Shown: in pieces, positions 12,099 through 51,052 of the stretch
How the letters are laid out: every line of letters begins with the position of its first letter
Numbering within the stretch: position 1 is the first letter of the stretch
Assembly (NCBI GenBank): GCA_900498215.1
Contig: LR026962.1
Span: 1,420,263-1,480,777, forward strand
Direction of reading: 5' to 3'
From: an uncultured Paludibacter sp.
Lineage (GTDB): Bacteria > Bacteroidota > Bacteroidia > Bacteroidales > Paludibacteraceae
Length of the DNA stretch: 60,515 nt
Program-made: the position numbers and the translations under genes
The notes under the pieces: model-generated
What the model was told of the DNA's origin: nothing
The model's input: the letters and a program-made list of their open reading frames with translations, nothing else
Database searches by the model: none

Positions 12099-12105
12099 TA
12101 CTATC

Positions 12106-13101: not shown

Positions 13102-13102
13102 A

Positions 13103-13224: not shown

Positions 13225-13269
13225 GCATTTCCCTGTTTTAGCCCTCTCAGCAATAGTAATTTTGTTGCA

Positions 13270-13313
13270 AACAACGCTCGAAAATGAGGCTCTCGGGCGT
13301 TGTTGGAGCCTCA
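13270..13313 (+). ncRNA. Predicted H-type pseudoknot upstream of the HTH genes
   Basis: Two inverted repeats interleave. Stem A is 13270-13280 with 13294-13304 (AACAACGCTCG with CGGGCGTTGTT, one G-U pair). Stem B is 13285-13292 with 13306-13313 (TGAGGCTC with GAGCCTCA). The order A5', B5', A3', B3' defines a pseudoknot. It lies 27 bases before the ATG at 13341, so it may control translation of the HTH operon or mark a replication or transfer site. Confidence 0.5.
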
Positions 13314-13340
13314 AATTTTTAATGCATAAAAAATTTGAAC

Positions 13341-13706
13341 ATGCAAGAAAATTTATTGCAAACAGAAATTTCATTTAACGATATGCCACGAGCATTGGCA
13401 TATTTAATTGGCAAGGTCGAAAGATTAGAATCCTTGCTTAGTGCAACAAAGTCAGAATTGCCCGAATCTGACAAGTGGTTTAATTTACAAGAATTGTGCA
13501 GCTATTTGCCAGACAAGCCAGCCCGACAGACTGTTTACGGTTGGATTGGTCAAAAACTCATTCCTTATCACAAAAAGGGAAAGAAGCTCCAATTTCTTAA
13601 AAGCGAAATTGATGCTTGGTTGATTGGTGACAAACACAAATCAGTAGCCGAATTACAGGCAGATGCAGCCGCTTTTGTAGCCAATAAGAAAGGAGGTTTG
13701 AAATGA
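13341..13706 (+). CDS. Small HTH_17 (excisionase-family) DNA-binding protein
   Basis: 121 residues from the ATG at 13341; a TTG two codons earlier is a less likely start. After a short predicted coiled coil (IGKVERLESLLSATKSE), the segment WFNLQELCSYLPDKPARQTVYGWIGQKLIPYHKKGKKLQFLKSEIDAWL is the helix-turn-helix excisionase-like domain common in mobile elements of Bacteroidota. It overlaps the next gene by four bases (ATGA), so the two are translationally coupled. The likely role is regulation or excision. Confidence 0.75.
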   Translation: MQENLLQTEISFNDMPRALAYLIGKVERLESLLSATKSELPESDKWFNLQELCSYLPDKPARQTVYGWIGQKLIPYHKKGKKLQFLKSEIDAWLIGDKHKSVAELQADAAAFVANKKGGLK

Positions 13707-14065
13707 GCGAACCTAAAACTATTGGCGAAATCCTGACAGATTATTTTTTGAATAGTCAGGAACCCTTTGCAATTGCTTTTCGCAATCACTTTGCTGTAAG
13801 CAATCAGGGTACAAACTCATGTACTGTTTGCCCTGCAAGTCCTGCCAGTCCACTAACTGACAGGCTGGAAGATTGGCTCGACAATCAGGATGTTATGCAA
13901 ATTCTGCATATCAGCCCTCGCACATTGCAAACATTGCGTTCCAATGGCATACTGCCATTTTCACGCATAGGCAACAAGCTCTACTATCGCCGTTCCGATA
14001 TTTCCCGAATCCTCAACAACCATTACACAATGGTGAAAATCAAGTATTATGGAGGCAAGAAGTAA
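13703..14065 (+). CDS. Second HTH_17 DNA-binding protein
   Basis: 120 residues. The C-terminal half (LDNQDVMQILHISPRTLQTLRSNGILPFSRIGNKLYYRRSDISRIL) is a MerR-like helix-turn-helix of the excisionase family. The N-terminal half has no recognised domain and includes CTVCPASPASP. Starts in the ATGA overlap with the gene upstream and overlaps the next gene by 17 bases, so it is part of one operon from 13341 to 17162. Paired HTH_17 genes before primase/helicase genes are usual in Bacteroidota integrative elements. Confidence 0.72.
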   Translation: MSEPKTIGEILTDYFLNSQEPFAIAFRNHFAVSNQGTNSCTVCPASPASPLTDRLEDWLDNQDVMQILHISPRTLQTLRSNGILPFSRIGNKLYYRRSDISRILNNHYTMVKIKYYGGKK

Positions 14066-15038
14066 AGAGGCGATATTATCAAAAACTCATTATGGCATTG
14101 GAATATATGCACATATTTTGAGATTGTATTATCCTGACCAAACAGTCCTCTCCCTTTCGGGGAGGACTTGTTCTCCAACTAAAAACCCATTCAATGCCGA
14201 TAAATCGACATTGAATATTTATATCAAGAAGGAGAATGTATTGGGTAATGCCTTGGATAAAGAGTTTGCACGGCATTCTGATAGTGAAAACGCTATCCCT
14301 GCCGGTGATGCGTTCGACTTCGCCGAGCTTCACTATAAACAGTCGGAGGATGAATTACTGCAAACGCTAAATAAAGAAATGAACTTGCATATCGGTGAGA
14401 AATTCGATTTTTACGCCAATGGCAAAAAATCAAATCAAACTCCAGAGGCCGCACAAACTCAAAGCCCCTCTATTGGAGGGGTTGGGGAAGCTTTCTTCTC
14501 ATTCTTCAAAGCTCCAGTTCAGAATATCATTCCTCATAAGTCAATTTCTTTGCTTGATGCCTACAATTACATTGTCGGCGAATATGCAAAACAACGAACC
14601 GAAAAACTGAGGAGTATAAAAGAACCAAAGCAAGCACGACAATTCAAAGCAAACAACTTTGACTACTGCACTTTTTCAGGAGTTTTCACCTCCCGGAATG
14701 ATAAAAAGATAGTACAACACTCAGGTTTGATGGCGGTCGATTTCGACCACCTGCCAAACCTCGAAGAAGTCCGTCAGTCATTGCTTGTTGATGAATACTT
14801 CGACACGCAATTGCTGTTTGTCAGCCCTTCCGGCGATGGACTGAAATGGATAATCTCTATTGACACCAAACAAACAACACACAGCAATTACTTTGCTGCG
14901 GTTGCAAACTACATTCTTCAAACCTACGGTATTGAGGTGGACAAATCAGGGCGGGATATATCCCGCGCCTGCTTTCTTCCCCACGATCCAAACGCTTTTA
15001 TAAACCCTTTAATTTTAGAAAATCATGATACATTATAG
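14049..15038 (+). CDS. BT4734/VirE-N-like primase-type protein
   Basis: 329 residues. The N-terminus (ILRLYYPDQTVLSLSGRTCSPTKNPF) matches a short domain frequent in element replication proteins. The C-terminal half has SGLMAVDFDHLPNLEEVRQSL and LLFVSPSGDGLKWIISID, the BT4734-like/VirE N-terminal primase-polymerase-type region. The Asp residues of AVDFD suit a metal-binding site. It pairs with the helicase-like protein at 15363. Residues 138-149 (QSPSIGGVGEAF) are encoded by a GC-rich palindromic repeat and interrupt a poorly conserved linker in frame. Confidence 0.75.
   Translation: MEARSKEAILSKTHYGIGIYAHILRLYYPDQTVLSLSGRTCSPTKNPFNADKSTLNIYIKKENVLGNALDKEFARHSDSENAIPAGDAFDFAELHYKQSEDELLQTLNKEMNLHIGEKFDFYANGKKSNQTPEAAQTQSPSIGGVGEAFFSFFKAPVQNIIPHKSISLLDAYNYIVGEYAKQRTEKLRSIKEPKQARQFKANNFDYCTFSGVFTSRNDKKIVQHSGLMAVDFDHLPNLEEVRQSLLVDEYFDTQLLFVSPSGDGLKWIISIDTKQTTHSNYFAAVANYILQTYGIEVDKSGRDISRACFLPHDPNAFINPLILENHDTL
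14461..14492 (+). repeat. In-frame palindromic element, copy in the primase-like gene
   Basis: The core CCCCTC-TATT-GGAGGGG is followed by TTGGGGAAG. It is read as S-P-S-I-G-G-V-G-E. Same consensus as 15773-15806. Confidence 0.7.
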
Positions 15039-15360
15039 AAAAACAAAAACATACGTATTGGTTTCCAATCCAACCAAATCAGGACTTGCAGTAACAGAAA
15101 TGTACATAAAACGGGAATTCCTGATCTCAATCGAAACATTAGTTCTGATTGATCACAAAAGCAGTTCAACAAATCATTATCATTGGAATACTCTCACAAA
15201 AATCTGGGCAATCTTTTTGGTAGAACTACACGACAAAATTCACGGAGAAGAGAACGGAAAGATTGATTGGTTCAACACCCCAAAAGTCGTACTCCAGAGC
15301 AAGTTTGCCCTATTGTCACTTATTATTAAAGCACTCATTATTTACCATTTAATATTTTAG
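15025..15360 (+). CDS. Hypothetical protein between primase- and helicase-like genes
   Basis: 111 residues overlapping the previous gene by 14 bases and ending two bases before the next start, so it is part of the same operon. It has no recognised domain. The sequence includes VLIDHKSSSTNHYHWNTLTKIWAIFLVEL and a hydrophobic C-terminus (FALLSLIIKALIIYHLIF) that could be a membrane segment. Tight packing argues that it is a real gene. No function can be given. Confidence 0.5.
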   Translation: MIHYRKTKTYVLVSNPTKSGLAVTEMYIKREFLISIETLVLIDHKSSSTNHYHWNTLTKIWAIFLVELHDKIHGEENGKIDWFNTPKVVLQSKFALLSLIIKALIIYHLIF

Positions 15361-15362
15361 CC

Positions 15363-17162
15363 ATGAGCAAGAAAACATTTGATCCTGCCAAATGGCAGCC
15401 TACAGAACCCAAGAAGATAGAATCGCAAATATCTCATAATTCAGCTGCACTTTCCCCCTCTCCAAGTGGAGAGGGGTCGGGGGGGAGGTCTGATATTGAA
15501 ACAATTACCCAACGAATTGAAGCCGCTTCTGTTGATATTGCCCCTAATTATGCCGATTGGCGAGACCTTGGCTTTGCCCTCGCTGACGCTTTGGGCGAAA
15601 GTGGACGGAATTATTACCACCGACTAAGTCGATTTTATCCGTCTTATTCGCAAAGCGAAACCGACAAACAATACTCCGCTTGCCTTGCTTCGCACGGCCA
15701 CGGAGTTACAATCAAAACACTTTACCACCTGACTAAGTCAGCTGGTGTAAGCGTTTCCATTCCCCAACCTACAAAAAGCCCCTCCTTGGGAGGGGTTGGA
15801 GAGGTCAAACCCACGAAAGAAGAAACGGAGGATTTGGAGGAAATGCAGGAAACAAATCTTCCTACTTTTCCCGATGAAATTTACACAGACCTCCCGGGCT
15901 TACTTCAAAAGGTAGTGGCAAAGTCCAATTCGCCCGAAGATAGAGACCTCCTTTTGCTGGGGTCGCTTGTTGTGATTTCAGCCTGTTTACCTAAAGTTTA
16001 CGGCATTTATGCAGAAAGAGAAGTTTACCCGAACTTATTCCTTTTTGTTACGGCTCAAGCTTCCGCAGGTAAAGGTCGCTTAACGCTCTGCCGTAAATTG
16101 GTTGACCCGATACACAAATCACTGAGGGAAGTTTCAAAACTTGAATTTGAAGAATACCAAAGAAATCTAACCGAGTACGCAGCTACCAAAAACAAAGCTG
16201 AAACAGAACGTCCCAAAGAACCGCCGGTGAAAATGTTGGTCATTCCGGCCAACAACAGCGCAACAGGTGTATTTCAGATTTTGAATGACAACAACGGCTC
16301 TGGGCTAATGTTTGAAACCGAGGGCGACACGCTTGCACTCACTTTCAAAAGCGAACACGGAAATTATTCCGATGGTTTCCGCAAGGCGTTCCACCACGAA
16401 ACAATTTCATACAACAGGAGAAAAGACAGGGAATTTGTTGAAATCAACAATCCCCGTTTGTCTGCCCTTTTATCGGGTACACCCAAACAAGTTTCAACAC
16501 TCATTCCGAGTGCCGAAAACGGCTTATTCAGCCGCTTCATTTTCTATTTCATGAATATTCGTCCTGTGTGGAATGATGTTTTTGCTAACTCTTCCGACCA
16601 AACACTCGATAGCTATTTCAATCACCTTGGAATGCAATTCTTTGAGCTTTACAAGCACTTAGAATATCAATCCGAACCAATACGCTTTTGTTTGACTTTG
16701 GCGCAGCAACAGGCTTTTAATGCCTATTTCTCGCAGACACAAAACCAGTACCTTTGTTTGTATGGGGCTGATTACCTTGCCACCGTTCGGCGGCTCGGTC
16801 TCATTACATTCCGAATGGCTATGATACTTACAACTCTTCGGATTATGGACGATGGCAATATCTGTTCACCATTGGTTTGCCGGGATAACGATTTCAATAC
16901 TGCTTTATCAATGGTCAAAATACTTGTTCAGCACGCTGCTCAGGTATTTCAACAACTACCTTCCGAAGCTGTTGCAACACCTCCCAAGAATCAAAAACAA
17001 CAGTTTTTAGACGAACTCCCGAAGGAGTTCTGCCGGAAGGATTATTTGACCATTGCAAACAAATTAGGCATTCCCGACAAAACCGCCGAAAAGCACATAA
17101 AACGCTTTGCAGTCAATGGGTTGATAAATCATTATGCGCATGATAAGTACAAAAAGCCCTAA
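15363..17162 (+). CDS. PriCT-2/DUF3987 helicase-like replication protein
   Basis: 599 residues. After a low-complexity start, residues about 40-115 (APNYADWRDLGFALADALGESGRNYYHRLSRFYP...YSACLASHG) match the PriCT-2 primase C-terminal domain. The rest matches DUF3987, a P-loop-type helicase/primase-associated region (VTAQASAGKGRLTLCRKLV, an A-x-x-x-x-GK-like loop, then LSGTPKQVSTLIPSAENGLFSRFIFYFM). A small C-terminal winged-helix-like segment follows. It probably acts with the primase-like protein in element replication. Two palindromic repeats are read in frame (15450-15492 and 15773-15806) and flank the PriCT-2 domain. Confidence 0.78.
   Translation: MSKKTFDPAKWQPTEPKKIESQISHNSAALSPSPSGEGSGGRSDIETITQRIEAASVDIAPNYADWRDLGFALADALGESGRNYYHRLSRFYPSYSQSETDKQYSACLASHGHGVTIKTLYHLTKSAGVSVSIPQPTKSPSLGGVGEVKPTKEETEDLEEMQETNLPTFPDEIYTDLPGLLQKVVAKSNSPEDRDLLLLGSLVVISACLPKVYGIYAEREVYPNLFLFVTAQASAGKGRLTLCRKLVDPIHKSLREVSKLEFEEYQRNLTEYAATKNKAETERPKEPPVKMLVIPANNSATGVFQILNDNNGSGLMFETEGDTLALTFKSEHGNYSDGFRKAFHHETISYNRRKDREFVEINNPRLSALLSGTPKQVSTLIPSAENGLFSRFIFYFMNIRPVWNDVFANSSDQTLDSYFNHLGMQFFELYKHLEYQSEPIRFCLTLAQQQAFNAYFSQTQNQYLCLYGADYLATVRRLGLITFRMAMILTTLRIMDDGNICSPLVCRDNDFNTALSMVKILVQHAAQVFQQLPSEAVATPPKNQKQQFLDELPKEFCRKDYLTIANKLGIPDKTAEKHIKRFAVNGLINHYAHDKYKKP
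15450..15492 (+). repeat. In-frame palindromic element, first copy in the helicase gene
   Basis: CCCCCTCTCC-AAGT-GGAGAGGGG followed by a G-rich tail. It is read as S-P-S-P-S-G-E-G-S-G-G-R just before the PriCT-2 domain. Confidence 0.7.
15773..15806 (+). repeat. In-frame palindromic element, second copy in the helicase gene
   Basis: GCCCCTCC-TTG-GGAGGGG followed by TTGGAGAGG. It is read as S-P-S-L-G-G-V-G-E just after the PriCT-2 domain. Confidence 0.7.
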
Positions 17163-17196
17163 TCTCCAACTCTGCAAATTTCCCGGCCTAACGTTC

Positions 17197-17243
17197 TATC
17201 ACGTTTTTGGCAATACGGATTGTTTATTGCCAAAAATGTGATA
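17197..17243. promoter_or_regulatory. Long inverted repeat before the restriction/Argonaute operon
   Basis: Arms 17197-17214 and 17226-17243 pair at 17 of 18 positions (TATCACGTTTTTGGCAAT and its near complement) around an 11-base loop. It lies 35 bases after the helicase gene. It may terminate the replication operon, or bind the XRE regulator encoded next. A symmetric operator would suit that dimeric family. Confidence 0.6.
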
Positions 17244-17289
17244 TAAAAAATGTCACTGCTATTGTTGAAAACTTTTCTTATATGTCCGT

Positions 17290-17317
17290 TTTGTTTGTGA
17301 ATAATTGTCTATCTTTG
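17290..17317 (+). promoter_or_regulatory. Candidate promoter of the defence operon
   Basis: TATCTTTG at 17310-17317 matches the Bacteroidota -7 box. A TTTG at 17290 is the best upstream box but leaves only 16 bases between boxes, so the assignment is tentative. The start codon of the XRE gene is 124 bases further on. Confidence 0.4.
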
Positions 17318-17440
17318 TTCAAATTCTGACAATCCAAAAAGCAAAAAGTCTCGCAGCCAAAAGCAAATGTTGAGCTTGTTTCAATCTGCGCTGCGTGCAA
17401 TCGGCTTTATCTGAAACAAAAAGTCTAAAACAAAACGATT

Positions 17441-17725
17441 ATGTTATTTGCTAATAAAATTCGACAACTAAGAGAAGAGCGGAAGTTGCTGCAACGCCAT
17501 TTGGCTGCGGTACTGGATATGGATACACCGATGTTTAGCAAGATTGAACGTGGTGAACGTCCGGCTAAGCGTGAACAAGTGATTGCCATTGCTAAAATTC
17601 TTACTACCGATGAAAACGAATTGCTAACCCTTTGGTTGGCGGATAAAATTTTAGATGTAATAGAAAATGAAACTGAATTATCAGACCAGGCACTGAAAGT
17701 AGCTATTGAAAATAAAAGCAAGTAA
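17441..17725 (+). CDS. XRE-family HTH regulator of the restriction operon
   Basis: 94 residues. FANKIRQLREERKLLQRHLAAVLDMDTPMFSKIERGERPAKREQVIAIAKIL is a Cro/C1-type helix-turn-helix. The C-terminal helices (LLTLWLADKILDVIENE) likely dimerise. It precedes the type III methyltransferase gene by 17 bases. This is the arrangement of controller proteins that delay nuclease expression until methylation is established. I infer that role, with the inverted repeat at 17197-17243 as a possible operator. Confidence 0.85.
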   Translation: MLFANKIRQLREERKLLQRHLAAVLDMDTPMFSKIERGERPAKREQVIAIAKILTTDENELLTLWLADKILDVIENETELSDQALKVAIENKSK

Positions 17726-17742
17726 CAGACCAACATACACTT

Positions 17743-19644
17743 ATGATAAAAGATATTCTCCAACACAACGAGGCTTTAACTCCTAATAGCCAAACATTAG
17801 AAGTGTTACAAGCCCATTTCCCCCAATGTTTCAACAAAGAAGGGTTTTTCGATGTAGATAAATTCAAAGAGCTGATTAAAGCCGATGTGGACATAACCCA
17901 CGAAGGTTACGACCTCAACTTTCTGGGGAAAAACTATGCGAAATTATTGGCTTCGATTGATACTACCACCGTTATTCAACCCGACGTGGAGCACAATGCA
18001 AAACCCGAAAACGCCAACAGCCAAAATCTCTATATCAGTGGCGATAACTTAGATGGACTGAAACATTTGTTAAAATCCTACACTGGTGCGGTGAAATGTA
18101 TCTATATCGACCCGCCTTATAATACAGGTTCAGATGGCTTTGTGTATAACGACAATTTCAATTTTACACCGAAGGAGTTAATCGACAAACTAAGTATTAG
18201 CGAAGAACAGGCACAGAAGATTTTCGACCTCACCACCAAAGGACGTGCTTCCCATTCAGCTTGGCTTACATTCATATATCCTCGCTTGTTGCTTGCCCGC
18301 GACTTACTTACGTCCGATGGAGTTATTTTTATTTCTATTGATGACAATGAACAGGCTAATCTAAAATTGATTTGCGATAGTGTGTTTGGAGAGGAAGCTT
18401 TTGTGGCTCAGTTTATATGGAAAAGTAGACAAAATAAGGATAATCGTAATATCTCCGGCGTTTCCGTTGATCATGAATATGTACTTTGCTATACAAAGAA
18501 TAACGAAAGTAGGTCTCTAAGGGGAAGTGATAGGAAAGAGGAACAATATTCAAATCCAGATAATGACATTCGTGGTGATTGGGCAAGTGGAAACATGGCA
18601 GGAATATTATCTGAGAACGAAAGACCAAATTGTCATTATGATCTAATTAATCCCAAAACTGGAATTAATTATGGAAAACCCAAAATGGGATGGCGATATG
18701 ATCAAAAAACAATGGCCAGATTAATTTCTGAGGATAGAATTATATGGCCTGAAACTCAAGAAGGCAGACCTCGAAGAAAGGTTTTCTTGTCTGAGTTGTC
18801 AGATGTTCTTGCTGGTTATAGTTCAATAATTGGAAATAATGTGTTTACAAGAACAGGAACAAGCGAAATAAATGAACTATTTCCTGTAAAGTGCTTTGAT
18901 TTTCCTAAATCAATAATGCTGATAAAAGAAATTATAGATCAAACTTGTTCTGACAATGATATTGTTTTGGACTTCTTTTCAGGTTCAGCAACAACAGCTC
19001 ATGCAGTAATGCAATTAAATTCAGAAGATGGAGGAAAACGGAAGTTTATTTCCGTTCAGCTTCCAGTGACATTAGACCCTAATAATGCCAGTCAGAAAAC
19101 TGCTTATGAATTTCTACAATCAATAAATTTGCCTACGACATTGGATTTTATTGGCATGGAGCGTATCCGTCGAGCCGCTGAAAAGATTAAAACAACGCTT
19201 CATTCTGATATTGATTACGGCTTTAAACACTATACATTGGTAGAGCCGTCGGAAGATACAATTGATAAATTGGAAGAATTTAAGGATACGGAAATGTTTA
19301 CAAATAACGATACCTTATCGCTATTTGGCAAAGAAACTGTGCTCGAAACATGGTTGGTAAAAGATGGCTATGGCTTCGGGGCTAAGGTAGAAAATGTGAA
19401 ATTAGCCGATTACACAGCTTACTTGTGCGGCAAACACCTCTATTTTATTGAAGCGGGAATCAACGAAAACGACATGGTGGCATTGCTCGACCGATACCAA
19501 CAAGAGCCGTCATTCAGTCCCGAAAACATTGTGGTTTTTGGGTACAGCTTCAATTTCTCACAAACTGAAATGCTTCGCAAAAACCTGTTTGTGCTGCGTG
19601 ATACGCATAAAAACCTGAAAGCTAACTTCGATATCAGATACTAA
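17743..19644 (+). CDS. mod: Type III restriction-modification methyltransferase (Mod)
   Basis: 633 residues. DPPYNTG (from residue 123, methyltransferase motif IV) precedes the SAM-binding motif DFFSGSATTAHA (from residue 410), the order of beta-class N6-adenine methyltransferases such as type III Mod. The long segment between them (about 220-400) is the target-recognition domain; it looks more A-rich than the flanks, suggesting exchange of specificity. The C-terminal part with FKHYTLVEPSEDTIDKLEEF is typical of Mod. It starts 17 bases after the XRE gene and ends five bases before res. Modification sequence cannot be predicted. Confidence 0.95.
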   Translation: MIKDILQHNEALTPNSQTLEVLQAHFPQCFNKEGFFDVDKFKELIKADVDITHEGYDLNFLGKNYAKLLASIDTTTVIQPDVEHNAKPENANSQNLYISGDNLDGLKHLLKSYTGAVKCIYIDPPYNTGSDGFVYNDNFNFTPKELIDKLSISEEQAQKIFDLTTKGRASHSAWLTFIYPRLLLARDLLTSDGVIFISIDDNEQANLKLICDSVFGEEAFVAQFIWKSRQNKDNRNISGVSVDHEYVLCYTKNNESRSLRGSDRKEEQYSNPDNDIRGDWASGNMAGILSENERPNCHYDLINPKTGINYGKPKMGWRYDQKTMARLISEDRIIWPETQEGRPRRKVFLSELSDVLAGYSSIIGNNVFTRTGTSEINELFPVKCFDFPKSIMLIKEIIDQTCSDNDIVLDFFSGSATTAHAVMQLNSEDGGKRKFISVQLPVTLDPNNASQKTAYEFLQSINLPTTLDFIGMERIRRAAEKIKTTLHSDIDYGFKHYTLVEPSEDTIDKLEEFKDTEMFTNNDTLSLFGKETVLETWLVKDGYGFGAKVENVKLADYTAYLCGKHLYFIEAGINENDMVALLDRYQQEPSFSPENIVVFGYSFNFSQTEMLRKNLFVLRDTHKNLKANFDIRY

Positions 19645-19649
19645 GCATT

Positions 19650-22601
19650 ATGGAGCTAATTTTACAAACGGGGCTTACCCACCAGCAAAAAGCAGTTGAC
19701 TCCATTGCTGATGTATTCCTTAATTCGGGTATCAGCCAACCGAATCAATATTACAGTAATCCAAGCATTTCTCCCGATAGTATCCTTTTGGGGAATATAC
19801 AGGAAGTTCAGAAAGCCAATGAGCTTCACAACTCATTGCGTGTTCTTTCTAAAGAAGTGACACCGCTGCATTTGGATATTAAAATGGAAACCGGTACGGG
19901 GAAAACATACGTTTACACCCATTCCATTTATGAGCTACACCACCGTTATGGTATTAATAAGTTTATTGTGGTAGTTCCTTCGCTTCCAATCAAGGCAGGT
20001 GCCGAACAATTCCTTGGTGATGGATATGTTCAAAAACACTTTGAAAATACCTGTGGTTATGGAACTAAAATCGAACTATACACCCTAAAAGCACAAGCAA
20101 AGAAAAAAGGCAAAACCTTTTTCCCGAGTGCTGTACGTGCTTTTGTGGAGGGGTCAAATCAAACAAGCAACCGTATTTATGTATTGCTTGTCAATATGCA
20201 GCTATTGACAAACGGAAATATGCTTTCCCGTTCCGATTACGATTTTGGCGTTCATGGCTACTACCGTCCGTTCGATGCACTCGCTGCAACAAAGCCATTT
20301 GTGATTATGGATGAACCACACCGTTTTCAGCGCGACCAAAAAGCGTATGAACGGATAACTGAAGAATTAAAGCCACAATGTATTGTCCGTTTTGGAGCTA
20401 CTTTCCCCGACATTACGGTTGGTAAAGGAAAAAACAAAACAACGAAGAAAGATTATCTCAATCTTTTGTACGACCTCAATGCTTGTGATTCGTTCAATCA
20501 AAATCTTATCAAAGGCGTTGCGAAAGAACATTTTGAGCCGCTGTCTTCCAAAGACGAGAAAATCAAAATCACGAGCATTGAAAGTAAAACTTCAGTGACA
20601 TTTAATCATATTTCGGCTAATGGTCGCAGGTCTTACACATTGCAAACAGGCGATTCACTGTCTGTGATCAGCGAAGAACTCAAAGGACTTTCTATAACCG
20701 GAATAGGTAAGAATTTTGTGGAATTTTCCAATGGTCAGGAAAAGTTCACAGGTGAAGAATTTACAGTCGATATTTTTTCCGATTCGTACCAGGAACAAAT
20801 GATTCGACTGGCTATCCAACGCCATTTCGAAACGGAACGAGCCAACTTCGACCGCCCTTGTAAGATAAAAACACTGGCACTTTTCTTTATCGACAATATT
20901 GATTCCTATCGTGGCGATAGCAACGGCGATAAATGGCTTCACACAATCTTTGAGCAACTTTTAAAAGAGCGTATCGAATATGAGCTTACGCAAAATTGTT
21001 CGACCGAATACAGGGCTTATCTTGAAGCAAGCAAAGCCGATATTTCGGCTTGTCATGCCGGATATTTTGCCAAAGACAATACCGATACCGATGATAATAT
21101 TGCTGCCGAGGTAGATGAAATACTTCACAACAAAAAGAAGCTTTTATCTATCGTTACGGAAGATGGTTCGTTGAATACCCGCCGTTTCTTGTTCTCCAAA
21201 TGGACGCTCAAAGAAGGATGGGACAACCCGAATGTGTTTACCATTGTCAAGCTCCGTTCCAGTGGTAGCGACAACAGCAAAATACAGGAAGTGGGACGAG
21301 GCTTGCGTTTGCCCGTAGATGAGTTTGGCAATCGTATATCAAATGAGGAATTTATGCTGAACTACATTGTTGATTTTACCGAAGCCGATTTTGCCAATCG
21401 TTTGGTGGCGGAAATTAATGCTGAATTACCTGCCGAACAAGCTACTCATATTTCAACGGAAGAGTTGGAACGGGTTGCCAAACTTCGGAACGTTGATACC
21501 AACCAATTTATGATTGAGTTGATGACAAAAGGCTATATTGACTTTTCAAGAAAAATCAATATAGATAAAATCAACGATTTTTATCAGGATTATCCCGAGT
21601 TCAATACGCCACGTCTTGCAGGCACTAAAGTAATTGACAAGAATAAACAGGGAAAAAATACTGTTAAAGTCCGGGAAGCACGTTTCAATGAACTGAAAGA
21701 ACTCTGGGCGGCTATCAACAAAAAATATGTGCTTTTCTTCGATAACGATGTAGAGCAATCCATAGATAAAGACATTCAAACTCTGCTGAAGGACGGTGTA
21801 TTTGGCTTGCAGGAAATAACCACCGACCGCCAAACCATTAAGGCAGGAAAAGACAATGTGGAAGTAGTTGGCGAAGCAGGTGTAACTTATTTGATAAGTG
21901 GCAGGAAACTACCATACAATGCTTTTTTGAAACGCATTAATAAAGCTACCTCTATTCCAATCAACACGCTTCACAATGCCATTTCTATATATGCCAAATC
22001 CGAAAACGGATTTAATCAGGCATATATCAACGAAAGTTCAGCAGCAAGGTTTATATCCAAATTCAACGATTGGAAATACGACAATCTGAAAGGGCGTTTC
22101 AATTATAAACAAACAGAATATACACCCACTTCAACCAAACTAACGAATGCAGATGGCTCAGTTAGAGACGAAGTGGTTCAGGGCGAAATAGGTACAAATC
22201 TTTTGAAGGGCGAACCGTCAGCTAAATATCTTTATGATGTAATTGCTTATGATTCTCCATTGGAATGTAAAAATATCATGGAGGATATTCAGGAAGTTGT
22301 TGTATATGGGAAAATCCCACGTCGCAGCATTTCTATCCCTACCATTGGCAATGACACTTACAGCCCCGACTTTATGTATGTAGTGAAAAAAGCCAGCGGT
22401 GAAAAAGAATTGAATATCGTGATTGAAACAAAACAGGTGGAAGGCAAGTCTTCATTACGTGGCGAAGAAGCAATGAAAATAAGCTGCGCCGAAGAATTTT
22501 TCAATCAACTGACATTAGACGGATACAAAGTATCCTTTAAAACTCAACTTAATAACAACGGTGTCAAATCAATTATTGAGGAGATAGTGAAAGGGAATTA
22601 A
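19650..22601 (+). CDS. res: Type III restriction enzyme (Res)
   Basis: 983 residues. The SF2 helicase part has Walker A ETGTGKT (residues 80-86), the DEPH box (from residue 221, MDEPHRF) and KEGWDNPNVF followed by VGRGLRLPVDE (motif VI). The nuclease domain lies near the C-terminus with D907 (SPDFMYVV) and E926-T-K928 (IETKQ), the PD-(D/E)xK pattern of Res subunits. Full length and intact motifs suggest an active enzyme. With Mod it forms a complex that translocates or slides on DNA and cuts unmethylated inverted sites. The next gene follows 14 bases downstream, so the operon extends further. Confidence 0.95.
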   Translation: MELILQTGLTHQQKAVDSIADVFLNSGISQPNQYYSNPSISPDSILLGNIQEVQKANELHNSLRVLSKEVTPLHLDIKMETGTGKTYVYTHSIYELHHRYGINKFIVVVPSLPIKAGAEQFLGDGYVQKHFENTCGYGTKIELYTLKAQAKKKGKTFFPSAVRAFVEGSNQTSNRIYVLLVNMQLLTNGNMLSRSDYDFGVHGYYRPFDALAATKPFVIMDEPHRFQRDQKAYERITEELKPQCIVRFGATFPDITVGKGKNKTTKKDYLNLLYDLNACDSFNQNLIKGVAKEHFEPLSSKDEKIKITSIESKTSVTFNHISANGRRSYTLQTGDSLSVISEELKGLSITGIGKNFVEFSNGQEKFTGEEFTVDIFSDSYQEQMIRLAIQRHFETERANFDRPCKIKTLALFFIDNIDSYRGDSNGDKWLHTIFEQLLKERIEYELTQNCSTEYRAYLEASKADISACHAGYFAKDNTDTDDNIAAEVDEILHNKKKLLSIVTEDGSLNTRRFLFSKWTLKEGWDNPNVFTIVKLRSSGSDNSKIQEVGRGLRLPVDEFGNRISNEEFMLNYIVDFTEADFANRLVAEINAELPAEQATHISTEELERVAKLRNVDTNQFMIELMTKGYIDFSRKINIDKINDFYQDYPEFNTPRLAGTKVIDKNKQGKNTVKVREARFNELKELWAAINKKYVLFFDNDVEQSIDKDIQTLLKDGVFGLQEITTDRQTIKAGKDNVEVVGEAGVTYLISGRKLPYNAFLKRINKATSIPINTLHNAISIYAKSENGFNQAYINESSAARFISKFNDWKYDNLKGRFNYKQTEYTPTSTKLTNADGSVRDEVVQGEIGTNLLKGEPSAKYLYDVIAYDSPLECKNIMEDIQEVVVYGKIPRRSISIPTIGNDTYSPDFMYVVKKASGEKELNIVIETKQVEGKSSLRGEEAMKISCAEEFFNQLTLDGYKVSFKTQLNNNGVKSIIEEIVKGN

Positions 22602-22615
22602 TATACTTAGTCATT

Positions 22616-23110
22616 ATGGCTAATCTATGGAAACAACAAGGCATTCCGCATAAAGGTTGGACATTGGAAAATGTGTACGATGTGCGGGAAGATGGTCAAT
22701 CGGAAGATGAAGCCTCTTACGAAATTTGCATGATGTGTGGTCATGAGAAAATTCGTTATGTACATGTTGTTTCTCACCCCGATTATGGTAAAGAATTATT
22801 TGTGGGGTGTCAATGTGCGGAAAAACTGACAGGTGATTATGAGAACCCACAGCGCAGGGAAAAAGAGCTAAGAAATAAAACCAGTCGGCGAATCAGTTTT
22901 ATCAAACGGTCATGGAAAATAAGTGCAAAAGGTAATGAATATCTCAAGATTGACAACCACCACATTTTAATCAGCGAAGACACTAAGACACATAAATTCA
23001 CTGTAAAAATCGATGATAATTGGGGCAAAAAGCATTTTGATACCACCGAACAAGCTAAAGCCGCGGCTTTCAAAGGAATTGAATATTACAAAGATAAGGG
23101 GGAATGGTGA
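22616..23110 (+). CDS. Small zinc-ribbon protein between Res and Argonaute
   Basis: 164 residues with CMMCGHEKIRYVHVVSHPDYGKELFVGCQCAEKL, a four-cysteine (CxxC and CxC) zinc-ribbon-like unit at about residues 37-75, then a basic stretch (RRISFIKRSWKIS) and an alpha/beta tail. No signal peptide. I do not recognise a named family; similar small zinc-binding proteins occur in variable regions of Bacteroidota. It lies 14 bases after res and 40 bases before the Argonaute gene, all on one strand, which makes it a candidate accessory factor of either. Confidence 0.65.
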   Translation: MANLWKQQGIPHKGWTLENVYDVREDGQSEDEASYEICMMCGHEKIRYVHVVSHPDYGKELFVGCQCAEKLTGDYENPQRREKELRNKTSRRISFIKRSWKISAKGNEYLKIDNHHILISEDTKTHKFTVKIDDNWGKKHFDTTEQAKAAAFKGIEYYKDKGEW

Positions 23111-23150
23111 CATGAAGTGAAAAACTGGAATTACAACAAACTTAAATATT

Positions 23151-25340
23151 ATGGCCGAATCTCTTTTTACAAACACATTAGCCTTTGAGTTCCCTAAAGA
23201 ACCCAAAATCTTCTATTTCTCCAAAGAAGACAGAACAGGTGTACCACTAACAAAATTGAGTCACCAGCTATTTCCATGTAACATTAAAAAGATATTCCCG
23301 GATATATCCAATGCGGATATTATTTATACGTCATTCTGTAAAAAGTTAGATGGATTCAAGCCCTTATCAATAGACTTTGCCAAGGATAATTTTTCGCTTA
23401 TCAAAAGATACTATAACAGAGAAATCAAGCATTATTTTTCGGTAAAAAATATTTTGGTAGAGCCAACATTTATCAAAGACAATCAGGTTTGGCTTCACTC
23501 AACCGATGCTACAGCTAAAAAGATAAAAGGATGTGAGGTATATGATAGGTTTACAATCAAAGTAAATTACAATCACTTCTTCAATACACCTGAAATAGTA
23601 CTTTCGTACGACAGGCAGGCAAAGGTTTACAAAAAGTCTGTTGCAACCTTTCTCTCAGAGCATGATAATTCCAACGAAAATCTCTTTGATGTAACTCCCG
23701 AAAACGCCTTTAATCCGGCTGATTTACTTATAAAGGTCGTTTATGTCAGCTATTATGGCAATGACAATAAATACAAAAATATGCAGGTAACTAAATACAG
23801 TCGACTAAAAGAGTGGATAGAAAACGGAGAGGAAGTTGACTTCAAACACGTTTACCCCATAATCAACAATCGGTTGGGAGCTTTTCTCGGTTACGATGAA
23901 GAAGAGGAGGAAAACGGAAGCCAGTACATAAAGAAAAACCGTTACACAAAATACCTTTCTAAAATATTTGGCTTTAAAAACAAATACCTGTCAACGACTG
24001 AATTCAAAAAAATAATCCCCGTATCAGATACCTTTACACAGGTAACGCCGGGTACAACAAGTCCCGATAGTAAACAGCTTATTTTCGGTAAGAACAGAAG
24101 GGACATGATTCCTCAGCGAGGAGTGAATAACGGACCATTTAAGCAACCTCGCCATACCAACATACAAATGTTTTTCATTGTTCCCCGCGAGCACGTCACC
24201 AACACAAACGATTTGTCAACATATTTGCGCAAAGGGTATAAAGCATTTGGGGGTCTATTCAAATATACGGATGTCCCCGTCTCGTTAGCACCAAAAAATT
24301 TTAATCTTGCATTTGAAAACCTTGAGAATCCATTACCCGAGATTGAAAACAAACTCGATGATGTCGATTTCACAGGAGCAAAATACCTGGCCATTTACCT
24401 CACCCCCATTGGGAAAAACACAAAGGCAAAAGAACAGCGAAATATTTACTATAAGGTAAAGGAAGCATTACTTAAAAGAAATATATCCTCGCAGTGTATT
24501 GAAACAGACAAAATGCTAACCGTTCTGAAAACGGATGCAGAGAATGGCAAAGATGCTTTTGCATATACCTTGCAAAACATAGCCATTGCTATAAATGCCA
24601 AATTGGGAGGCACTCCCTGGCGTATCGCTGTTCCCGAATATCGTGAACTAATTATTGGTATAGGAGCTTTCAAACATACAGATACCAATGTACAATATAT
24701 CGGTTCGGCATTTTCCTTCGACAATACTGGAGCATTTAACTCCTTCGAGTATTTCCACAAAGATGAATTAAAAGAATTGGTCGGCTCTATCGAATCAGCT
24801 ATTATCGACTATCGAAATACGATTGCCAACCTTGAAAGACTCGTTATACACTATTACAAAGACATGCGCGAAGATGAGGTGGAAATCATTGAAGATATGC
24901 TCTACAATATAGGTGTAGATGTGCCTGTCTTTGTAGTCTCAATCAACAAAACAGAATCCGAAGACATAGTGGTTTTCGATGATAATTTTGCCGAGAAAAT
25001 GCCATATAGCGGACGATACATAAACTTAGGCAATAACACCTATTTACTTTGTAATAATACCCGCTATTCCGACAATAACACCCGTAGCATTGAAGGTTAT
25101 CCGTTTCCGGTCAAGTTGAAAATAAAATGTCATTCAGACAGTTCTTTACTAACTACGCCCACAATAAACGGGTTAATAGACCAGGTATATCAATTTAGCC
25201 GCATATATTGGAAGTCCGTAAAACAACAGAATCTCCCTGTTACAATCAAATATCCCGAAATGGTTGCTCAAATTGCACCCCATTTCACAACTGGTTCAAT
25301 TCCTTCAAATATTGGAAAAGATAACCTTTGGTTTCTGTAA
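23151..25340 (+). CDS. Long prokaryotic Argonaute with a probably inactive PIWI domain
   Basis: 729 residues. The MID domain has IYYKVKEALLKR (from about 432), a following SSQCIE, and the signature NAKLGGTPW (482-490), which together bind the guide 5' end. PIWI begins at RELIIGIGAFKH; the first catalytic Asp, expected in the pattern IGID, is Gly505. The later HRDG-type motif reads IHYYKDM (from 566), so the third acidic residue is Tyr569. The C-terminus ends with the aromatic/hydrophobic DNLWFL typical of Argonautes. The N-terminal 400 residues should hold the N, linker and PAZ-like domains but show little clear identity. Expected activity: guide-directed binding without slicing. Such proteins usually work with an effector; here the operon partners are a zinc-ribbon protein and a type III restriction system. 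Confidence 0.85.
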   Translation: MAESLFTNTLAFEFPKEPKIFYFSKEDRTGVPLTKLSHQLFPCNIKKIFPDISNADIIYTSFCKKLDGFKPLSIDFAKDNFSLIKRYYNREIKHYFSVKNILVEPTFIKDNQVWLHSTDATAKKIKGCEVYDRFTIKVNYNHFFNTPEIVLSYDRQAKVYKKSVATFLSEHDNSNENLFDVTPENAFNPADLLIKVVYVSYYGNDNKYKNMQVTKYSRLKEWIENGEEVDFKHVYPIINNRLGAFLGYDEEEEENGSQYIKKNRYTKYLSKIFGFKNKYLSTTEFKKIIPVSDTFTQVTPGTTSPDSKQLIFGKNRRDMIPQRGVNNGPFKQPRHTNIQMFFIVPREHVTNTNDLSTYLRKGYKAFGGLFKYTDVPVSLAPKNFNLAFENLENPLPEIENKLDDVDFTGAKYLAIYLTPIGKNTKAKEQRNIYYKVKEALLKRNISSQCIETDKMLTVLKTDAENGKDAFAYTLQNIAIAINAKLGGTPWRIAVPEYRELIIGIGAFKHTDTNVQYIGSAFSFDNTGAFNSFEYFHKDELKELVGSIESAIIDYRNTIANLERLVIHYYKDMREDEVEIIEDMLYNIGVDVPVFVVSINKTESEDIVVFDDNFAEKMPYSGRYINLGNNTYLLCNNTRYSDNNTRSIEGYPFPVKLKIKCHSDSSLLTTPTINGLIDQVYQFSRIYWKSVKQQNLPVTIKYPEMVAQIAPHFTTGSIPSNIGKDNLWFL

Positions 25341-46709: not shown

Positions 46710-46867
46710 TTGCGCAAAATAGGTTATTTTTACAGTTTATTTTACAACCAATTTTATTACACATAACACAAATTGCGTAATTTAGTTTTAACATAAATAA
46801 CTATAAATAAAATAATTACAACCGAGTTGCGCATTTTAAGTATCCAAGCAAGAATTGCGTATATTTG
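46710..46867 (+). promoter_or_regulatory. Leader of the TIR operon with four TTGCGYA motifs and a -7 box
   Basis: TTGCGCA or TTGCGTA occurs at 46710, 46773, 46827 and 46855, all on the plus strand. TATATTTG at 46860-46867 is a candidate -7 box with no good TTG 19 bases upstream. The repeated motif could be an operator. Confidence 0.4.
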
Positions 46868-46871
46868 TGTG

Positions 46872-46885
46872 TTAGCTGAAAGGCT
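46872..46885 (+). repeat. Left arm of an inverted repeat flanking the TIR operon
   Basis: TTAGCTGAAAGGCT. Its complement, with one mismatch, occurs at 49750-49763 just after the last gene. Confidence 0.55.
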
Positions 46886-46921
46886 GAACAACATAACGTA
46901 CTTAAAACACTATTCATCAAT

Positions 46922-47515
46922 ATGATATTTGAAAGAGGACACTTTAAAACAAATAAAATTGTTAATCTGAATGAATCGATTAAAGAAACAAGAACATTTA
47001 GTAAATCGAAAACTGAATATAAACCAACAGTTTTTATTTCTCACAAACATAGTGATTTGGAAGACCAAGAAGAAGTAAAAGGAATTCTTGAAATATTTGA
47101 AGATTTAGGTGCTAAAGTTTATATTGACAGTATGGACAATAAAATGCCTAATGAAACTTCAGGAGAAACTGCACTTAGAATTAAAGAGGTAATCAAGTAC
47201 ACTAAAAAATTCGTTCTAGTTGCAACAGAGAAAGCTATAGAATCATATTGGTGCAATTGGGAACTTGGTATTGGTGATACACACAAATACATTGAGAACA
47301 TAGCAATTATCCCAATAAAAGATAAAGGAGAATATGACTTTAAATATAAAGGAAACGAATATCTTCAGATTTATCCAAGTATCGATTTTGAAGATGGTAC
47401 AAATCGCTATATGACTTCAAAAGAATTAATCCCAAGAGGATATTATGTATGTAAGCCTAAAAATAAAGACGGTGTCCGATATATCACACCTTTAAAACAA
47501 TGGTTAAATCAGTAA
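46922..47515 (+). CDS. TIR-domain protein, first gene of the four-gene operon
   Basis: 197 residues. The TIR domain spans about 35-165: TVFISHKHSDLEDQEEVKGILEIFEDLGAKVYID (first strand, AA loop and second strand) and KKFVLVATEKAIESYWCNWELGIGD. In the latter, E114 of the W-x3-E pattern corresponds to the catalytic glutamate of NAD-cleaving TIR enzymes. The C-terminal tail (about 165-197) ends KPKNKDGVRYITPLKQWLNQ. No signal peptide. Expected role: NAD hydrolysis or cyclic-ADP-ribose-type signal production, or recognition. The next gene starts three bases after its stop. Confidence 0.85.
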   Translation: MIFERGHFKTNKIVNLNESIKETRTFSKSKTEYKPTVFISHKHSDLEDQEEVKGILEIFEDLGAKVYIDSMDNKMPNETSGETALRIKEVIKYTKKFVLVATEKAIESYWCNWELGIGDTHKYIENIAIIPIKDKGEYDFKYKGNEYLQIYPSIDFEDGTNRYMTSKELIPRGYYVCKPKNKDGVRYITPLKQWLNQ

Positions 47516-47518
47516 ATT

Positions 47519-48679
47519 ATGTTTAAGTACCAGCTAATATTTTTAGGCACAATTAAGCCCTTGACAAGAAATCTGATTTCAAAATACTACGAGAAAATAG
47601 AGGATTTAAAACTTCAAAAAGAATTCTATGAGATTTACTTCAAAGAGCAATTAGATTCTTATAAGGGCAATCAACCAACATTTATCATTTACTTTGGTAA
47701 TGAAAATGGTGATTTTGAAGATTTAGCGGAAATAGAAATGTTGTTAAAAGATGGAAATATCGTTCTTCCAATTTTCTTTAATTCTTTTAGTCAAGAAATT
47801 CCTAAAATATTAAGTAATCAAAATGGATTGAAATATACAGAATATCAAAAAGACAAAATTGTTGACTTAGTACTCGAATCATTTGGCAAATTAAGAAGTA
47901 GTAGAAAAGTTTTTATTAGTTATAAAAGAGACGAATCAACGTCTGTTGCAATACAATTATATGAAGCACTTGAAAAGAATAATTTTGACGTTTTCTTAGA
48001 TACACATTCAATAAAACAAGGAGAGCCTTTTCAAGATGAATTATGGCATAGAATGACTGACTGTGATGTAATTCTTCTTTTAAATACCCCAAAATTTTTG
48101 GAAAGTGAATGGTGTGAAAAAGAAATTGCAGAAGCATCGGTTAAGCAAATAGGCATTATTCAAGCTATTTGGCCAAATCATAGACTAGAAAGAATGGCGG
48201 AAGTATGTTTTCCTTATACATTATCTGAAAGGAATTTTTTAAAAGGAATATATGATAACAAGGATACTTCCAAACTTAATGATGAAACCATTAATAATTT
48301 AGTTAATCAAGTCGAATCTATTCGTGCAAGAAATCTTGCTTCTAGACAAGATAACCTAATCACTGAGTTTCTTAATTCAGCCCGAAAATATGGCAAAAAT
48401 GTTACTATACAGCCCGAAAGATTCATCACCGAAGAAATCGATAATAATAAGAGAAGAATATTTATACCTTCAGTTGGTATTCCACAATCATTTGATTGCA
48501 ATACATCATCAGAACTAAAAAAAGAAATTAAAGAATATTCTGTTGAGGAAGTCTACTTAATTTATGATGATGTAAGAATTAGAGAAAAATGGTTAAATCA
48601 TCTTAGCTATTTAAATGAATACCTAGACGTAAAAACAATTAAAAAGCAAGAATTCGATTTATGGCTACAAAAGAACTAA
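47519..48679 (+). CDS. Three-part protein with a central TIR domain
   Basis: 386 residues. About 1-125 form an alpha/beta domain (YQLIFLGTIKPLTRNLISKYY, TFIIYFGNENGDFEDLAEIEMLLKDGNIVLPIFF) that looks like a second, divergent TIR or Rossmann-type fold. The canonical TIR lies at about 130-250: KVFISYKRDESTSVAIQLYEALEKNNFDVFLD and LNTPKFLESEWCEKEIAEAS, with candidate catalytic E202. The C-terminal about 80 residues (RRIFIPSVGIPQSFDCNTSSELKKEIKEYSVEEVYLIYDDVRIREKWLNHL) may form another small sensory domain. It overlaps the next gene by 19 bases, which implies translational coupling and shared function. Confidence 0.82.
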   Translation: MFKYQLIFLGTIKPLTRNLISKYYEKIEDLKLQKEFYEIYFKEQLDSYKGNQPTFIIYFGNENGDFEDLAEIEMLLKDGNIVLPIFFNSFSQEIPKILSNQNGLKYTEYQKDKIVDLVLESFGKLRSSRKVFISYKRDESTSVAIQLYEALEKNNFDVFLDTHSIKQGEPFQDELWHRMTDCDVILLLNTPKFLESEWCEKEIAEASVKQIGIIQAIWPNHRLERMAEVCFPYTLSERNFLKGIYDNKDTSKLNDETINNLVNQVESIRARNLASRQDNLITEFLNSARKYGKNVTIQPERFITEEIDNNKRRIFIPSVGIPQSFDCNTSSELKKEIKEYSVEEVYLIYDDVRIREKWLNHLSYLNEYLDVKTIKKQEFDLWLQKN

Positions 48680-49257
48680 AAAATATTTTTTTATCTGCCA
48701 GTATTCCGTTCAAGGAGAGACACGAAAAATATTATAATACGGCAGATATAATTGCAATTAGAGACTCTGTAATTGCTCTTGCCTCGCTCGTCATACCGAA
48801 ATACAGACTTATTTGGGGTGGACATCCATCTATAACTCCAATTATATATTATGTTTTGGAAAAATTTGAAGTAGAGATTCAAAGTCACGTTAAATTATAT
48901 CAATCAAGACATTTTGAGAAAATTTTTCCAATAGAAAATAAGGAATTTGAAACGGTAGAAATTACTGACGATTTAGGAGAATTAATACCAAGTCTGCGTT
49001 TGATGAGAGAAAAAATGTTAGGTGAAAATAAGTTTGAAGCAGGTATATTTATTGGTGGAATGGAAGGAGTTGAAGATGAGTATAATTTATTTAGTGAATT
49101 AAATCCAAATTCAATTATACTACCTATTGCGAGTACTGGAGCAGCAGCCAAAATCATTTACGAAAATAATATAGAAAGTTTTAAAAATGATAAACTCATT
49201 AAAGACTACGGCTATATGAGTTTATTTCAGGAGTTACTAATTGATAAAATTAATTAA
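48661..49257 (+). CDS. Stand-alone SLOG-type nucleotide-sensing protein
   Basis: 198 residues with a Rossmann-like SLOG pattern: IFLSASIPFKERHEKYYNTADIIAIRDSVIALASLVIP, then RLIWGGHPSITPIIYYVLEKF, and late FIGGMEGVEDEYNLFSELNPNSIILPIASTGAAAKIIYE. The GGHPSxTP and FIGGMEGVxDE elements are typical nucleotide-binding loops of this class. In Thoeris, ThsA carries a C-terminal SLOG that binds a TIR-made cyclic ADP-ribose isomer; here SLOG is a separate protein beside TIR genes. It overlaps the upstream gene by 19 bases, and the next start follows its stop by one base. Confidence 0.75.
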   Translation: MATKELKNIFLSASIPFKERHEKYYNTADIIAIRDSVIALASLVIPKYRLIWGGHPSITPIIYYVLEKFEVEIQSHVKLYQSRHFEKIFPIENKEFETVEITDDLGELIPSLRLMREKMLGENKFEAGIFIGGMEGVEDEYNLFSELNPNSIILPIASTGAAAKIIYENNIESFKNDKLIKDYGYMSLFQELLIDKIN

Positions 49258-49258
49258 T

Positions 49259-49750
49259 ATGGCAAAAAGACAAATATTTTATAGTTTTCATTACGACAAC
49301 GATGTATTTAGAGTTCAACAAATAAGAAACATTGGTGCTCTGGAAGACAATAAACCTGTTTCTGCAAATGAATGGGAAACTGTTAAAAGAGGTGGAGAAA
49401 CAGCAATAAAAAAATGGATTAATGATAATTTAAACTATAAAAGTTGCTTAGTTGTCTTGATAGGTTCAGAGACTGCAAATCGAAAATGGGTTAAATATGA
49501 GATTGAAAAGGCTTGGAATGACGGTAAAGGAGTATTAGGAATTTATATTCATAACCTAAACTGTCCACGAAACGGCAAATGCTCGCAAGGACCTAATCCT
49601 TTTCAAACTTTTACAATGGATAGAGATGGTAAATCTTTAGCATCAATAGTCAAATGTTACAATCCAAGCTATAACAATGCATACAATGACATTGCTAATA
49701 ATATTGAAAGTTGGATTGAAGAAGCAATAAAAATTAGAAACAATTATTAA
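49259..49750 (+). CDS. ThsB-like TIR (MTH538/DUF1863-type) protein
   Basis: 163 residues from the ATG at 49259 (MAKRQIFYSFHYDNDVFRVQQIRNIG), the usual start of this family; a TTG six codons upstream overlaps the previous gene and is less likely. YSFHYDNDVFRVQQIRN and SCLVVLIGSETANRKWVKYEIEKAWNDGKGVLGIYIHNL define the ThsB-like TIR, with candidate catalytic E81 in WVKYE. An internal CPRNGKCSQGPNPF insertion is also typical. In Thoeris this protein senses infection and makes the nucleotide signal. It is the last gene of the operon. Confidence 0.85.
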   Translation: MAKRQIFYSFHYDNDVFRVQQIRNIGALEDNKPVSANEWETVKRGGETAIKKWINDNLNYKSCLVVLIGSETANRKWVKYEIEKAWNDGKGVLGIYIHNLNCPRNGKCSQGPNPFQTFTMDRDGKSLASIVKCYNPSYNNAYNDIANNIESWIEEAIKIRNNY

Positions 49751-49763
49751 GCCCTTCAGCTAA
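49750..49763 (-). repeat. Right arm of the inverted repeat flanking the TIR operon
   Basis: AGCCCTTCAGCTAA, complementary to 46872-46885 with one mismatch. It includes the last base of the final stop codon and lies next to the group II intron remnant. Confidence 0.55.
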
Positions 49764-49769
49764 TCGAGT

Positions 49770-50043
49770 AGATGGTCGGTGAGCTAAGCTCACCGATGCA
49801 CCTCTCACACCACCGTGCGTACGGGTCTCGTACACGGCGGTTCGTCAAGACGAGGAAAAATTTTCAGGTAGTGTTCAAGAAAAGATAAATCTCATTTCCT
49901 GTTTTGCGGGCTTCTGTCTTTGTTTTGCAATAGATGCTAAAATCATCGGCATAGCGGACAAAAACCTTTTCTCCCGCCCGAGTCCTCGCGTATGGGAAAT
50001 AAATTAAAATTCCCTTGTCGGGTTTGATTTGTAAATTCCAGTA
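49770..50043 (-). mobile_element. Truncated group II intron
   Basis: On the minus strand a reverse-transcriptase fragment is followed by domain V: stem CCGCCGTG...CACGGTGG at 49810-49840 with the internal GTACGAGACCCGTACG hairpin. A domain VI-like hairpin CGGTGAGC...GCTCACCG (49776-49794) comes next. The 5' ribozyme domains and most of the protein gene are missing. Confidence 0.8.
49864..50043 (-). pseudogene. Group II intron reverse transcriptase fragment
   Basis: About 60 codons on the minus strand: YWNLQIKPDKGILIYF, then GEKVFVRYADDFSIYCKTKTEARKTGNEIYLFLNTT and a stop. VRYADDFSIY holds the polymerase YADD motif (49942-49953). The fragment stops soon after, where intact proteins continue through the thumb and maturase (X) domain. 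There is no start codon in range; the 5' part was lost. Confidence 0.85.
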
Positions 50044-50335: not shown

Positions 50336-50439
50336 TAATGGTAGTTCGTTTAATGAACGATACAAAGAGCAACTGTCCGTTTGCCAAAAAGCGTTTGTAA
50401 ATTTATATCGGGGTGTTACACCATGGTATATTTCCAAGC

Positions 50440-50720
50440 GCTTTTCTAAAAAAACAGTTTACCCAATTGTATTTCGGGACGTGCTTTTTTAAAAAAACAG
50501 TTTACCCCATGGTCTGTTGGGACGTGCTTTTATACCTTCGGGTAGTTCCCCAATGGTCTATTTCCTGCCACAATGTCATATTGGGGAGTTCCCCAACGGT
50601 ACATTTCCGAGTTCTTTTTTAAAAAACAACTTACCCCATGGTCTGTCGGGACGTCCTTTTTTTAAAAACAGTTTACCCCATGGTCCGTTGGGACGTGCTT
50701 TTGTACCTTCGGGTAAAACA
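50440..50720 (+). repeat. Degenerate tandem repeat of about 43 nt, six units
   Basis: Each unit carries a CCCMATGGTCTRTTGGG-like palindrome, most followed by ACGTGCTTTTTTAAAAAAACAGTTTA. Units 2, 5 and 6 are closest; units 3 and 4 have lost parts. Two copies of TACCTTCGGGTA end units 2 and 6. The rest of the stretch from 49,990 to 51,052 shows no gene. It also holds a second pair of related stretches: GCGCGATTTATT at about 50,256 and GCGTGATTTATT at about 50,897. Confidence 0.7.
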
Positions 50721-51052
50721 TTAAAGTATTATAAAATAGAACTTTACATGTTTTTTATAATAAAATCAGCACAAAAAAACAAAGAAAACTGACATTTTGG
50801 CAGGCGATATTATCATTGTTTCAAGAGGTTTGACTTTGATTTATCGCTACGTCGACTTAAAATAAAGTGTCGTCCTTGTTATCGTGCGATTTTATCGCGT
50901 GATTTATTTATTTACCACACGTTACAAATGCCGAAAAATCGGCACAGGCAGCGCGGTAGCAGAGCGCCAGTTTGTACCGTTATTTTTTACAGTTGAATAA
51001 TCCTCCCGCGCCCGCTATATCTCTAAAAATAGATATTGTATTTTTTCTTGCC

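Follow-up and report, generated by a model that had tools for sequence, protein, structure and literature searches.

The question raised by the locus described here is how a Thoeris-like set of genes could function when the SIR2 part of the classic ThsA effector is absent. The locus, a four-gene TIR/TIR/SLOG/TIR set at positions 46922–49750 on the plus strand, lies in a stretch of 60,515 nucleotides from an uncultured Paludibacter sp. that was analyzed as a whole (the window). The open reading frames read from the window and their Pfam matches agree with a preliminary description of this operon, down to the spacing of the genes and the positions of three catalytic glutamates. Gene 1 (46922–47515; 197 residues) encodes a small ThsB-like TIR protein with catalytic Glu E114 (TIR_2, 38 bits; ThsB_TIR, 22 bits). 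It is followed after 3 bases by gene 2 (47519–48679; 386 residues; TIR_2, 61 bits), with catalytic Glu E202, and this overlaps by 19 bases with gene 3 (48661–49257; 198 residues), which encodes a stand-alone SLOG protein (LD_cluster3/SLOG, 196 bits, with a STALD echo below threshold). Gene 4 (49259–49750), one base further on, encodes a second small ThsB-like TIR protein (ThsB_TIR, 99 bits) of 163 residues when counted from its ATG, with catalytic Glu E81; the mechanical reading frame starts at a TTG at 49241 and gives 169 residues, in which numbering E81 becomes E87. The scores of genes 3 and 4 thus bear out the earlier identification of a free-standing SLOG and a ThsB-like TIR. A SIR2-STALD ThsA was not found anywhere in the 3.16-Mb single-contig genome, where the sole STALD match is the gene 3 protein itself (22.6 bits, below the cut-off of 24), and the two places matched by PF13676 (TIR_2) in the whole genome are both inside the operon, which is therefore the only Thoeris-type locus that those searches found.

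What the operon is can be read from curated family models. In the June 2026 version of NCBIfam, gene 2 matches Thoeris_type3_ThcB4 (NF058526) with 449.2 bits against a cut-off of 220, and gene 3 matches Thoeris_type3_ThcA (NF058525) with 246.7 bits against a cut-off of 110; this type III name of genes 2 and 3 was overlooked in the preliminary description, and the two proteins are called ThcB4 and ThcA from here on. Genes 1 and 4 bear no NCBIfam subfamily name and match ThsB models of PADLOC (PDLC00423, 207 bits, and PDLC00433, 257 bits, respectively). PADLOC 2023 also rates ThcB4 as a further ThsB (422 bits), so that type III is missed if only that library is scanned. Every sequence feature of type III is present, namely a ThcA over its cut-off, a ThcB4 over its cut-off that adjoins ThcA, and ThsB-like small TIR proteins in the same operon; of the type I features, ThsB TIR proteins are present (genes 1 and 4) and a SIR2 + STALD ThsA is not. 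An enterobacterial plasmid copy likewise has ThcA and ThcB4 both above the curated type III cut-offs, and the type III call of ThcA holds in 9/9 members of a cross-phylum alignment. With an adjoining ThcB4–ThcA core and small TIR genes in common with type III Thoeris, and nothing that excludes membership, the operon belongs to a type already named in a public library. Membership follows from the curated-model scores, and we judge it probable that the operon encodes a type III Thoeris system that is intact and acts against phages, in which the small ThsB-like TIR proteins would provide the input to the ThcB4–ThcA core and a signal would act through ThcA on ThcB4 to deplete NAD; the individual mechanistic steps are those that we infer below. 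The library models for type III state no mechanism, and a literature search on type III Thoeris, ThcA or ThcB returned nothing relevant on mechanism. PMC13232231 cites a 2025 preprint (10.64898/2025.12.03.692087) that is the likely source for type III Thoeris, and the mechanism may therefore already be in print.

Residues R116, G132, G133, M134, G136 and E140 of the SLOG protein ThcA are kept in 24/24 sequences, and in a profile alignment E140 is paired with E403 of BcThsA, and R116 with R397 in 7uxt, a ThsA-type chain. In ThsA, 3'cADPR is coordinated by E403, R371 and K388 (PMC10022894); R116 of ThcA, which is aligned indirectly, is likely equivalent to R371 of BcThsA. When the AlphaFold2 model of ThcA (pLDDT 87.8) is ranked against the PDB, EcThsA comes out best, followed by a structure of the TRPM2 channel in complex with an ADP-ribose-type ligand. 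Conserved residues and modeled fold together point to ThcA as the probable receptor for an ADP-ribose-type signal. The same residues admit a second reading, in which ThcA is itself a catalytic effector whose LOG-like Arg/Glu site hydrolyzes a nucleotide pool once activated by a TIR-made signal (with ThcB4 among the makers), or in which ThcA destroys the signal and serves as an off-switch. Its R116, G132-G133, G136 and E140 resemble the phosphoribohydrolase motif of LOG, the R...GG..G...E pattern being similar to that at the active site in nucleotide hydrolases of the LOG type, and on that ground ThcA could be an enzyme; its fold matches include LOG and DprA structures, and the "A" of its NCBIfam name parallels that of the effector ThsA. 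Some SLOG domains are moreover enzymes on nucleotides (PMC9503650). However, the equivalent Glu in ThsA is a ligand contact and not a catalyst, the top structural matches of ThcA are ThsA and TRPM2, and the protein that constantly accompanies ThcA, ThcB4, has an invariant catalytic Glu of its own; a catalytic ThcA is the main rival reading, which we regard as unlikely, and ThcA is treated in what follows as a putative receptor.

In all three TIR proteins the catalytic Glu is invariant among aligned homologues (E114 in 16/16, E202 in 21/21 and E81 in 22/22). The closest solved chain to gene 1 is 8btn (54 bits), and those closest to gene 4 are 8wcf (219 bits) and ThsB1 9b7d (80 bits). Gene 1 is probably a sensor and/or signal-making TIR. 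In another Thoeris system the phage major head protein is bound by ThsB1, ThsB2 is recruited, and the signal is made by ThsB2 (reviewed in PMC12043709); by analogy, genes 1 and 4 could split the labor as ThsB1 and ThsB2 do. ThcB4 is a larger protein composed of an N-terminal alpha/beta domain, a central TIR domain (residues 129–234, approximately), a long helix and a C-terminal alpha/beta domain. Its AlphaFold2 model is of moderate confidence (pLDDT 76), and a Foldseek search with whole ThcB4 gave sensible matches to the TIR domain only (TIR-1, SARM1). The terminal domains (47519–47890 and 48400–48679) have no Pfam or confident PDB match; conserved positions outside the TIR domain are G10, P84 and P95 on one side and P317, G320, P322, W358 and H361 on the other, and it is possible that these domains are ThcA-binding surfaces. 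The comparative data described next single out ThcB4 as the likely NAD-depleting effector.

ThcA exceeds its cut-off in 6 of the 396 sampled Bacteroidota genomes, and ThcB4 does so in the identical six; by simple counting, the chance that six random picks from 396 would coincide is about 1 in 5 x 10^12. Relatives are also found in genomes of other phyla and in 29 plasmid records, and ThcA and ThcB4 are co-present on the same three IMG/VR viral contigs; phage records yielded no ThcA relative. With the window excluded, all 24 non-redundant loci that contain both genes have ThcB4 as the immediate upstream neighbor of ThcA, in the same orientation and adjoining or overlapping it. Two further loci (L015 and L018) reach a contig edge before the expected ThcB4, and in the genome of L018 a ThcB4 is present on another contig. 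The gene 1 and gene 4 proteins represent two (A and D) of at least three kinds of small TIR protein, the kind called C not occurring in this operon, and the full order A–ThcB4–ThcA–D is repeated in four Bacteroidota genomes, those of Lutibacter (L009), Sphingobacterium (L010), Flavobacterium (L011) and G264 (L019). Ratios of dN/dS against three distant relatives are 0.016–0.10 in the eleven gene comparisons for which they could be computed (gene 1 versus L010 was left out because synonymous sites are saturated). Recurrence of the order in four further genomes, together with these low ratios where computable, argues against a chance arrangement. Thus the co-occurrence that the preliminary description had proposed as a check is observed, and its view of the locus as a single Thoeris-like functional unit is upheld by the conserved order and by the invariable adjacency of ThcB4 and ThcA.

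The components do not evolve with equal cohesion. Pairwise distances of ThcA and ThcB4 are correlated with r = 0.95 when 23 loci are compared and 0.97 in the subset of 16 with a D-type TIR, whereas the corresponding correlations of the D-type TIR with ThcA and ThcB4 are 0.54 and 0.52, and the small TIR proteins differ between loci in number (1–4), kind, order, strand and position. The close tracking of ThcA with ThcB4 and the weak tracking of the D-type TIR suggest a fixed core to which exchangeable small TIR proteins are attached as inputs. This bears on an account that dispenses with a diffusible signal altogether, in which the TIR proteins and ThcA form one stoichiometric complex that is triggered by phage and whose NADase is switched on by TIR–TIR contacts. 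Self-association is the usual way in which TIR NADases become active, and the genes of the operon overlap or almost touch, both of which would suit such a complex; the variation of small TIR proteins between loci, however, is a poor fit to any fixed stoichiometry, and the invariant component is a SLOG with putative signal binding. We consider a signal-free complex quite unlikely.

Under the preferred reading of an ADP-ribose-type signal, three steps can be proposed. ThsB homology and the invariant Glu suggest that the TIR proteins of genes 1 and 4 would detect a phage component and turn NAD+ into a cyclic or variant ADP-ribose signal. The fold and conserved pocket residues of ThcA suggest that the signal would be bound there, in the pocket equivalent to the 3'cADPR site of ThsA. 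Finally, the adjacency of the two genes, their co-evolution and an invariant E202 suggest that ThcA with its partner ThcB4 would let the ThcB4 TIR domains assemble, hydrolyze NAD+ and abort infection. The simplest reading is then that ThcA–ThcB4 stands in for ThsA as the receptor–effector module. The complete scheme is a split-effector relay of two signal-making TIR proteins, a free-standing SLOG receptor and a third TIR protein that depletes NAD+, with input TIR proteins interchangeable between type I and type III cores; taken as a whole, it is advanced tentatively, at a little under an even chance.

The locus in Sphingobacterium athyrii (L010; NZ_QCXX01000003.1, 3382–9087) is a tandem of two Thoeris types, I and III, of which the type I set is complete. 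A kind A TIR gene, a ThsA gene (SIR2 + STALD; PADLOC, 640 bits) and a kind C TIR gene lie there immediately upstream of the type III set and on the same strand. Because kinds A and C flank ThsA, type I and type III appear to be served by the same TIR kinds. In four other loci, on Citrobacter, Serratia and Pantoea plasmids and on one viral contig, a gene for a patatin-like phospholipase lies between the small TIR genes and ThcB4–ThcA (L023, 2297–3910; L028, 3028–4719; L031, 2303–3916; L064, 2282–3904). The phospholipases of L023 and L064, the two that were scanned with Pfam, have an N-terminal SLOG (LD_cluster2) stretch, and that of L023 clears the NCBIfam CBASS_lipase cut-off; the phospholipase of these loci may be a second effector that reads the same kind of signal.

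The operon differs from its surroundings, with a GC content of 29.5% versus about 40% for flanking genes. By blastn, DNA similarity extends over 46871–49763 for the Lutibacter locus, 46861–49763 for that of Flavobacterium and 46906–49758 for that of Sphingobacterium, and the flanks are unrelated; the extent of the cassette is taken as 46861–49763 (plus strand), the block shared with the Lutibacter and Flavobacterium loci. A GC-poor cassette of 2.9 kb under strong purifying selection and between unrelated flanks argues for an intact, horizontally moving system, and on these comparisons the four genes are maintained proteins within such a cassette. Imperfect inverted repeats, TTAGCTGAAAGGC at 46872–46884 and TTAGCTGAAGGGC at 49752–49764, bracket it; pairs as good were obtained in 17 of 2000 random placements, and the 5' repeat TTAGCTGAAAGGC occurs once genome-wide. 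An integron cassette was considered and rejected, as about 1% of random placements do equally well, the 5' repeat has no second copy in the genome and the Lutibacter pair is unremarkable; a search for an integron integrase gave none above cut-off.

Immediately after the cassette, at 49763–50020 on the minus strand, there is a group II intron remnant (Rfam Intron_gpII, 39.6 bits versus a gathering threshold of 40; Rfam at gathering threshold reports no RNA feature), beyond which a reverse-transcriptase-like YADD stretch can be recognized by eye. The presence of a truncated intron next to the operon, and the lack of a known sensor specificity for this host, might suggest a decayed or domesticated remnant that has no defense function. 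However, all four frames are open, the catalytic residues are all there, and dN/dS is low against each of the distant relatives where it is computable; a degenerate remnant was rejected on purifying selection and intact active sites, and a loss of defense function is most improbable. Elsewhere in the window, 50413–50800 is non-coding and repetitive, a motif such as GTTTACCCCATGG recurring there in several near-copies, and a second island at 10845–25340 contains a tyrosine integrase, a PriCT/DUF3987 primase-like protein, a type III restriction-modification pair (17743–22601) and a Piwi/pAgo protein (23151–25340; PADLOC pAgo, 730 bits).

Among described systems other than type III, type I Thoeris shares with the operon ThsB-like small TIR proteins and a SLOG related to the C-terminal domain of ThsA, the Arg and Glu of the pocket being kept. 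Unlike type I, the operon is without SIR2, its SLOG is a separate LD_cluster3 protein and not STALD, and a larger third TIR protein, ThcB4, stands where type I has its SIR2 NADase. Types II and IV are alike in the proposed use of a TIR-made, ADP-ribose-derived signal and a signal-activated partner; in type II the effector is a TM-macro protein and the signal His-ADPR, and in type IV a caspase-like protease is paired with N7-cADPR (PMC12847820). The operon contains no TM-macro or protease gene, and Pfam gave no macro-domain match for any of its four genes. TIR-SAVED and TIR-STING systems of CBASS resemble it in logic only, as a nucleotide receptor driving a TIR NADase; there, however, a single polypeptide carries both receptor and TIR, and a cyclic oligonucleotide serves as the signal, whereas two proteins and an ADP-ribose-based signal are proposed here. 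No SAVED, STING or CD-NTase was matched by Pfam in the genes of the operon, and a SAVED-TIR model matches weakly and only in their TIR regions.

What is new here is a further member, the type itself having already been named. Thoeris is a main model of TIR immune signaling, which extends from bacteria to plants and animals. If the SLOG receptor is indeed separate and the killer probably a TIR protein, the output module of Thoeris would be swappable while the sensing TIR proteins stay, and the tandem locus of Sphingobacterium would offer a natural test of a signal shared by type I and type III.
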